The notes beneath the pieces were generated by a model. That model saw only the letters and a program-made list of their open reading frames with translations. It searched no databases and was not told where the DNA came from. 64,000 bases of DNA from Prostheceraeus crozeri (taxonomy: Eukaryota; Platyhelminthes; Polycladida; Euryleptidae). Below, piece after piece: positions 33,244 through 34,195 of the stretch. Position 1 is the stretch's first letter. Each line of letters opens with the position of its first letter. The position numbers were made by a program, and so were the translations under genes. The stretch covers positions 62,001-126,000 of the forward strand of contig CAJQUW010008710.1 of assembly GCA_907163375.1 (NCBI GenBank), given 5' to 3'.

Positions 33244-33825
33244 TTGAAACATAGCTTTCGGAACATGCCTCATTACATTAGAACATGGAAACTTAGTGAC
33301 GTTCAAAACGTTCACATAACAAATTCTAACAGAATAGCATTTCGTCATTCAATAGCAAATAGTGATCGAAAACATCGTGGCGTTTGCATTAGTATTGACT
33401 CATTGCCTTCACTGAAAGACTTTGCGGATCTCATTGACAACCATAAGACTCGGATCAAGATTCCTCTCGATGACAAGGTATGGATAAAGTGTGATTCATC
33501 AGTCAAACTATACGTCTGTTCACCAAAACGTGAAGATGTTGAATATCGATTTTTTCGTTTCAGTGACGTCACATGGGAAACCTTTACAAGGGAGATACTA
33601 CCACAGATAACGTCATTCATTAAAGATGGAGGACATCAAACGGTTGGAAGTTGTAAATCGGATGTTAACTACAAAAGCAAAGTCAAAACTCAATCTACAA
33701 GAGATCGAGAGGAATATACCCAACCGAAAACAATGGTTACTGATAAAACGCAAATTGAAGCCGACAACGAGCTTACATCTTGGAAGACCCTCAATGTTAA
33801 CATGGAGGATTCAGAGGAAGGATAG
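33244..33825 (+). CDS. Polinton protein with possible tandem PC4-like folds
   Basis: A 193-aa ORF, or 186 aa if it starts at the second Met (MPHYIRTW). Two segments show a strand-strand-strand-helix pattern like transcription cofactor PC4 (p15): about residues 20-66 (NVHIT, RIAFRHS, GVCISID, then LKDFADLIDN) and about 70-128 (KVWIKCDS, VKLYVC, YRFFRFS, then TWETFTREILPQI). The last 65 residues are hydrophilic, lack structure, and overlap the start of the TBP-like ORF in another frame. PC4 folds bind single-stranded DNA and assist TBP-dependent transcription, so adjacency to a TBP-like gene is suggestive. The homology is my inference from topology and may be wrong. Confidence 0.5.
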   Translation: MKHSFRNMPHYIRTWKLSDVQNVHITNSNRIAFRHSIANSDRKHRGVCISIDSLPSLKDFADLIDNHKTRIKIPLDDKVWIKCDSSVKLYVCSPKREDVEYRFFRFSDVTWETFTREILPQITSFIKDGGHQTVGSCKSDVNYKSKVKTQSTRDREEYTQPKTMVTDKTQIEADNELTSWKTLNVNMEDSEEG

Positions 33826-34195
33826 ATCTCTCACTATCCTATTCTTTCCAAATGGAACAATCCAATGTATTGGAAGGGTCATGGAGGGTGATCTCTCATA
33901 TTTACACTTAACTTTGGAACATTTACTTGGTGATTCATTATCTGATTGGAAAGTGAAGACAATGACCGTGTTATGTGAATTACATTATCACTATGATTTC
34001 CGTAAAGTTACATCATCACATAATCTAACTTATGAAGTGGAGTTATTTCCAGCAGCTCAATTGACTAACTGGCATCCATATCATGTTCATGTGTTCCATA
34101 ATGGAAAGATTGTGATAACCGGCATTAAAGACATAAGTGATGTGCCTCCCATCATATGTGATTTGAAAAAATGTTTCATGAAAACCAAATTGTAG
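33626..34195 (+). CDS. TATA-binding-protein-like protein
   Basis: A 189-aa ORF overlapping the previous one by 200 bp in a different frame. An in-frame stop lies just before the ATG, so it is not a simple extension. Its layout follows TBP: a first repeat with KLNLQEIERN, then a strand (RPSMLTWRI) and SLTILFFPNGTIQCIGR, matching TBP's signature strand in which a turn with Gly is followed by a C-(T/I)G motif. A linker follows, then the second repeat with YEVELFP and HVHVFHNGKIVITG, matching the E-P-E-LFP and F-SGK-VLTG signatures of TBP, and a final amphipathic helix. Length (about 180 aa) fits the two-repeat saddle. It would recognise TATA-type promoters, of which the element has many. Splicing or frameshift joining to the upstream ORF is possible. 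Confidence 0.75.
   Translation: MEDIKRLEVVNRMLTTKAKSKLNLQEIERNIPNRKQWLLIKRKLKPTTSLHLGRPSMLTWRIQRKDRSLTILFFPNGTIQCIGRVMEGDLSYLHLTLEHLLGDSLSDWKVKTMTVLCELHYHYDFRKVTSSHNLTYEVELFPAAQLTNWHPYHVHVFHNGKIVITGIKDISDVPPIICDLKKCFMKTKL

Follow-up and report, generated by a model that had tools for sequence, protein, structure and literature searches.

Polintons (Mavericks) have a common anatomy of inverted ends together with genes for an integrase, a family-B polymerase, an ATPase, a protease and capsid proteins, and the target duplication of a Polinton measures 6 bp. Among cellular and viral factors that bear on the present locus, the animal proteins TRF1/TRF2 and TLP are diverged paralogues of the TATA-binding protein (TBP) that serve promoter subsets, and African swine fever virus is a large virus with its own polymerase. 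TBP is described from several DNA viruses: it occurs in 59% of mirusvirus genomes (PMC10132985), it is carried by Megavirus (PMC11464507), it accompanies two TFIIB genes in CpV-BQ1 (PMC12085832), and B263R of African swine fever virus is a predicted TBP-like protein (PMC5825884). ORF24 of KSHV is a TBP mimic of the beta/gammaherpesvirus type that works with host RNA polymerase II; it keeps the four phenylalanines, misses the acidic residues that contact TFIIB and has extra domains (PMC12529657). TRF1/TRF2 and TLP are the TBP-related factors of animals (PMC3142196). A TBP occurs here and there in endogenous elements of the alga Cymbomonas whose capsid genes are mirusvirus-like and which have neither a DNA polymerase gene nor capsid genes of the double jelly-roll type (PMC10675990); these elements are the nearest prior description of the situation reported here.

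No report of a TBP in a Polinton was found in the openly accessible literature that was searched, which included PMC10675990, PMC10132985, PMC7786948, PMC11464507 and PMC12085832. The word TATA was absent from the Polinton, Maverick or adintovirus papers that were searched by term, the term "transcription" was absent from PMC4028283, and the papers retrieved on polintoviruses, transcription factors and corals reported no TBP in a Polinton.

The Polinton and its TBP gene

The window, i.e., the whole stretch of 64,000 nucleotides of Prostheceraeus crozeri that was analysed, contains a Polinton of 20,690 bp (23384..44073), delimited by its inverted termini and the 6-bp repeat that flanks them. 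The target-site duplication AACTTC is perfect over its 6 bp (left copy 23378..23383, right copy 44074..44079), and the terminal inverted repeats are about 370 bp long with matching termini (left, 23384..23753 on the forward strand, with a 41-bp tandem repeat; right, 43692..44073 on the reverse strand). These long terminal inverted repeats, the 6-bp target duplication and a retrovirus-like integrase identify the element as a Polinton/Maverick. The integrase, which carries a chromodomain, is encoded at 38244..39395 on the reverse strand (rve, E=3.5e-13; Chromo, E=1.3e-9). The ORF at 29128..32883 (forward strand, 1251 aa) is assigned to a DNA polymerase B of the protein-primed type with N-terminal zinc fingers; Pfam recognised C2H2 fingers and Endonuclease_7 (residues 527-569) in it, no polymerase match was obtained in Pfam or PDB, and the motifs DVNNLYG, KNNSLYGK and DTDS, found by eye, are what we take to be family-B polymerase signatures. 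An OTU-like stretch was also seen by eye in this ORF.

The remaining genes of the expected set lie on the reverse strand. A maturation-protease-like ORF (34345..34809) is named from its position and a Peptidase_C48 match below the cut-off (E=0.033), and a packaging-ATPase-like ORF (40185..40820) from AAA_14 (E=6.7e-5, below the cut-off) and Pox_A32 (E=0.054), with no match in a PDB search. From position and likeness, the 427-aa ORF at 34806..36089, which has no match in Pfam or PDB, and the 534-aa ORF at 36626..38230, which begins with GTG and has no significant match in Pfam, are presumed to encode the major and the minor (PY-type) capsid protein, respectively. Also within the element are a CCCTAA telomere-type repeat of about 23 copies (25745-25885) and, close to the right inverted repeat, a RING-finger ORF (43103-43615, reverse strand; PF13920, E=1.4e-9). 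Around the Polinton there are mobile-element ORFs at 20749-22119, 12404-13261, 62013-62531 and 47892-49003, by look of pogo/Tigger-like, mariner-like, gypsy-integrase-like and tyrosine-recombinase-like types. Such transposon neighbours, like the kind of element itself, point to an animal genome.

The first-pass annotation had placed a TBP-like gene with both pseudo-repeats inside a Polinton, and the gene indeed lies within 23384-44073, between intact ends and the target duplication. It occupies 33626..34195 on the forward strand, where an uninterrupted frame begins with the ATG at 33626, runs to a stop codon whose last base is 34195 and encodes 189 aa (P0001). A 41-bp direct repeat (34197-34281, 2.1 copies, 93% matches) adjoins the 3' end of the gene and occupies the gap between two converging gene blocks. 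In a first search, 16 relatives of P0001 were found, and the search with an alignment of those 16 returned 193 proteins at E<=1, the best 120 of which were listed; these searches place P0001 in a large family. The start at ATG 33626 is supported because relatives have the N-terminal part: the segment VVNRML..LNL..IE..IP is kept in P0002, P0018 and P0021 (193, 188 and 189 aa), and P0019 (177 aa) starts 12 residues later, inside that segment. Counted against this start, 15 of the 16 first-search relatives begin at or past residue 57, possibly as truncated gene calls. Searches of the viral contig set with the TBP and its two alignments, and with the polymerase and the presumed capsid ORF, found no encoded relative.

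Several comparisons bear on the identity of P0001. All the motifs that had been quoted for it are present (FFPNGTIQCIG, YEVELFP and VFHNGKIVITG), and it matches the Pfam TBP family (PF00352) in two stretches with 49 bits (cut-off 22.9; E=5.6e-13). As a single sequence, P0001 found 36 PDB sequences at E<=10, of which 35 reached E<=0.0078 and are named TBP, TFIID or TBP fusions, with the exception of 4wzs_D (labelled just ECU04_1440 protein), which matches yeast TBP across the whole core; the one remaining hit (E=0.5) has no relation to TBP. The A1 profile of the window-type clade, which covers mostly residue 57 onward, retrieved the same TBPs, 35 PDB sequences with a best E of 2.4e-9. Profile-to-profile comparison agreed as well. 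The A3 profile, made from 15 more distant relatives with P0001 excluded (15/15 match PF00352 at E<=0.01), aligned with TBP of M. jannaschii (2z8u, residues 13-185) over positions 4-175 of 178 in one stretch that spans both pseudo-repeats (E=2.5e-19), and hhalign gave a probability of 98.8% (E=6.6e-17, 164 columns) for a 19-member alignment that includes P0001, set against TBP; in the latter alignment the window-type clade has an insertion in repeat 1. On these profile and structure-database matches, P0001 is a genuine, strongly diverged two-repeat TBP, and we regard this identity as firm.

Promoter sequences in the element

At least seven TATATAA-type boxes had been claimed in front of the genes of the element, which is an overstatement: TATATAA was found in the 150 bp upstream of five of the 17 gene starts (39-93 bp away), and one further start has TATAAAT. 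On the forward strand, TATATAA lies at 24312..24318, 89 bp ahead of ORF 24401, and TATATAAGG at 29089..29095, 39 bp ahead of the polymerase ORF 29128, with TGACGTCA at 29067. On the reverse strand, TATATAAGG at 41783..41789 precedes ORF 41696, TATATAA at 42300..42306 precedes ORF 42240, and TATATAAGG at 43041..43047 precedes ORF 42992. The ORFs of the presumed capsid proteins, the protease, the ATPase and the integrase have no TATATAA in the 150 bp upstream.

Shuffle tests were made with 15 starts, those of the TBP gene and of ORF 28316 not being among them; the integrase start was placed at ATG 39465, which belongs to an overlapping ORF in a different frame (39395 in the count of 17), and two of the starts tested are non-ATG codons (38230, GTG; 43615, TTG). 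TATATAA occurs within 120 bp upstream at 5 of these 15 starts, whereas 300 shuffles averaged 0.45 and never exceeded 3, which suggests that several genes of the element have their own promoters. The excess is weaker for the looser TATAWAR (5/15 starts; mean 1.52 and maximum 5 in 300 shuffles). The element contains 11 copies of TATATAA on both strands, and the 20 copies in the whole window are not above chance (15 +/- 4.3). Near four of the five boxes there is TGACGTCA, TGAGTCA or ATTGG (CRE, AP-1 and CCAAT-like, respectively); AP-1 sites are at most slightly commoner inside the element (9 in 20.7 kb) than outside (14 in 43.3 kb). In their look, the TATATAA promoters resemble those that polymerase II uses in animals generally, and the host TBP would suffice for them.

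Candidates for a second promoter class were also considered. The herpesvirus-type late box TATTWAA was rejected, as it occurs at 0/15 gene starts within 120 bp, and so was a late motif RRGCWAAW, which is present at 7/15 starts (0.61 expected) but was picked after looking; the related TAAGCWAA is not elevated (8 vs 6.3 in the window). When degenerate 8-mers were searched without bias in the 60 bp next to the starts, TWYYAAKC came out at 8/15 of them with a score of 9.1, which beats 16 of 16 shuffles (best 6.95). This signal is a mixture of initiator-like sites 16-38 bp past TATATAA (four genes) and sites before four genes that are without TATATAA, and it is suggestive only. No second promoter class was established from the tests of TATTWAA, RRGCWAAW, TAAGCWAA and TWYYAAKC.

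Conserved surfaces, the overlapping partner and the proposed role

Residues were compared with yeast TBP in 91 of 121 proteins, each of at least 150 aa and with the RPxM motif; the yeast residue numbers start from the first position of the core sequence used. F116, F190, F207 and P191 are present in all 91 two-repeat members. The position of yeast F99 is proline in P0001, whose first repeat has a GRPxM motif there, and in 91/91 members, although this proline is part of the motif by which the members were chosen. Of the two groove asparagines, N69 is kept in P0001 and in 74 of the 75 members with a residue at that site, N159 is threonine in P0001 and asparagine in 80/91 members, and the TFIIB-contact region, YEVELFP in P0001, is well conserved (E186 in 89, E188 in 87 and L189 in 90 of the 91). 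P0001 and yeast TBP are identical at 34 of 168 aligned residues (about 20%); for comparison, the figure is 65 of 169 between yeast TBP and archaeal TBP. Because F99 is replaced by proline and only three bending phenylalanines are left, we class P0001 by its sequence as a diverged and not as a canonical TBP. According to PMC12529657, the four phenylalanines of TBP bend the DNA, a proline next to one of them affects sequence choice, and acidic residues touch TFIIB (numbered E184 and E188 there, E186 and E188 in the present alignment). Since F116/F190/F207/P191, N69, E186 and E188 are near-invariant in the members, the surfaces for DNA bending and for TFIIB contact are both, as far as aligned residues tell, largely kept.

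We therefore read P0001, from its sequence, as a viral TBP that would direct host RNA polymerase II to the genes of the element, and we give this function a probability of roughly 0.6. The most economical role would be that of a promoter-binding initiation factor working with host TFIIB and polymerase II, and the earlier idea that the element directs its own transcription initiation is plausible and preferred. The first genes of the element would be read by host RNA polymerase II unaided; the Polinton TBP would then bind A/T-rich promoter DNA, bend it by its three retained phenylalanines and recruit host TFIIB and polymerase II via the retained C-terminal stirrup (YExELFP). In this way a set of genes might be switched on, perhaps the late ones, whose upstream regions are without TATATAA, and the overlapping partner described below, probably co-expressed with the TBP, may act in the same step. 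DNA binding, TFIIB recruitment, the target genes and the role of the partner are each inferred. Counted against an initiation factor are the changes of F99 to proline and N159 to threonine in P0001, its low identity to yeast TBP (34/168) and the host-like TATATAA promoters, which do not need a viral TBP.

The same substitutions would also fit a TBP-fold decoy or repressor, which would keep the TFIIB surface, bind TATA poorly, and titrate TFIIB or block host promoters, so that host transcription is shut down or the element is kept quiet. The loss of one bending phenylalanine and, in P0001, of N159, with YExELFP kept, would be as expected for such a protein; the presence of F116, F190, F207 and P191 in 91/91 members, however, would be surprising in a protein that no longer binds DNA, and we consider this explanation unlikely.

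Upstream of the TBP gene and on the same strand lies a partner gene of no recognised family (P0122, 186 aa, 33265..33825), which shares 200 nt with the TBP gene in a different frame, so that in the stretch 33626..33825 the tail of P0122 and the first TBP repeat are encoded together. P0122 has seven relatives (identity 44-99%, coverage 97-100% of the length) with a conserved core; these eight members gave no significant match in Pfam, and no significant PDB match was obtained for the partner. In an overlap test, we determined the residues that the +1 frame could spell given any DNA encoding each tail. The tails of 7/7 relatives fit the N-terminus of a TBP member in the +1 frame, ungapped and at the same offset, with 57, 58, 59, 61 and 74 of 75 compatible residues in five relatives. 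The two nearest relatives have 63 and 65 of 66; one of them, P0123, is 99% identical to P0122 and adds little, and the P0122/P0001 pair of the window itself fits by construction. The overlap scores over the 25% line were 38 to 55, and shuffled tails reached at most 12.2 (50 per comparison, for the best four of ten comparisons per relative). By inference from the protein tails, the TBP gene would thus overlap each of the seven relatives in the same manner. The existence of at least 120 TBP relatives, together with this dual-frame overlap in 7/7 cases, speaks for long selection on the gene pair.

The genomic setting of the TBP relatives is known through the frame-overlap test and one joined protein only. 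This protein, P0087 (275 aa), has a partner-like N-terminus joined to TBP; the N-terminus matches the partner by hmmsearch (E=9.7e-5 in a set of 121 proteins, 5.3e-4 for the best domain) and by hhalign (E=2.2e-5, probability 76%). In a quick tree, P0001 belongs to a branch of 20 (support 0.99) and P0087 falls outside it, and for this reason the two genes have probably been neighbours for a long time. The joined form may come from the gene caller, because P0084 has the same TBP part without the partner-like N-terminus.

Some further features of the partner gene were noted. In five of the seven relatives, the partner ORF extends about nine codons further, to a P(I/F)L(S/F) terminus, than it does in the window (33826-33860) and in the two nearest relatives. 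Ahead of the gene (33040-33200) there are repeats of the CATC.TTCCGAYATGTWG type, with exact copies at 33103 and 33183 and a third, looser copy near 33040 seen by eye; two such matches were reached in 6/100 shuffles of the window. P0122 as a PC4/Sub1-like coactivator was rejected: the two are alike by eye and hhalign gave the expected register, at a probability of 0.5% and E=0.13; an internal-repeat test failed, and a Pfam scan of the eight members was without a PC4 family. Nothing on PC4 together with Polintons was found in the literature searched.

The arrangement of the pair, past the polymerase gene and on the same strand, could also point to replication or packaging, with the TBP fold and P0122 bound to the element's termini or origin and the host in charge of transcription. 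That the partner is without a recognised function would agree with such a role; there would, however, be no reason for the TFIIB-contact residues to be retained, and the likeness of P0122 to the single-strand-binding coactivator PC4 fails (probability 0.5%, E=0.13); we hold this role to be rather improbable. Recent chance capture of a host TBP gene or fragment that is functionless in the element is very hard to reconcile with the divergence of P0001 (34/168 residues equal to yeast TBP, against 65/169 between yeast and archaeal TBP), with the separation of the 91 two-repeat members from cellular TBPs in the quick tree (support 1.0, two cellular references only), and with the recurrence of the neighbour-gene overlap in relatives and the depth of the family. 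A chance resemblance of the ORF to TBP is already refuted by the Pfam match of the single sequence (E=5.6e-13) and the profile match of its relatives (E=2.5e-19).

Returning to the viral TBP acting with host polymerase II, we tentatively envisage a wider scenario, which we hold to be possible but doubtful: an ancient lineage of animal Polintons with a two-gene module, consisting of the dual-frame partner and the element's own TBP, that would reprogram host RNA polymerase II via TFIIB to a late promoter class. If so, the elements would have a herpesvirus-like temporal switch reached by a different route and, at about 20 kb, would to our knowledge belong with the smallest viruses that have a core-promoter factor of their own. 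That a virus-like mobile element of this size carries a diverged TBP suggests that such elements bring along part of the machinery that starts genes. If the TBP works in the way proposed, the timing of early versus capsid genes in a Polinton becomes testable with a 189-aa protein and defined promoters. The TBP relatives are a natural set that lacks one of the four bending phenylalanines and are useful for learning what is essential in TBP, and the Polinton TBP may serve as a marker gene for finding such elements.

Comparison with known TBPs and TBP mimics

Cellular TBPs (yeast, 1ngm/1ytb; M. jannaschii, 2z8u) resemble P0001 nearly end to end, with two pseudo-repeats, three of the four bending phenylalanines, the TFIIB-contact E-x-E-L and the FP pair of repeat 2. 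They differ from it in the proline at F99 and the threonine at N159 of P0001, in an identity of only about 20% (yeast), and in the repeat-1 insertion of the window-type clade. TRF1/TRF2 and TLP, compared by description, are likewise diverged TBPs, but they are host genes.

Among the viral proteins, B263R of African swine fever virus is, by its description, likewise a predicted TBP-like protein of a DNA virus. The TBPs of mirusviruses and giant viruses are also borne by DNA viruses, but, going by their descriptions, their hosts are protists and algae and their carriers are not Polintons. Megavirus has its own RNA polymerase and TFIIB, whereas the Polinton gave no sign of either among the 17 ORFs scanned with Pfam. 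The nearest functional model is KSHV ORF24, which is viral and works with host RNA polymerase II. P0001 shows neither of the two marks of a herpesvirus-type mimic, i.e., loss of the acidic residues and an extra C-terminal domain. With three phenylalanines, the acidic residues and a bare core of 189 aa, the Polinton TBP is, set against ORF24 as described, the reverse of the herpesvirus protein.
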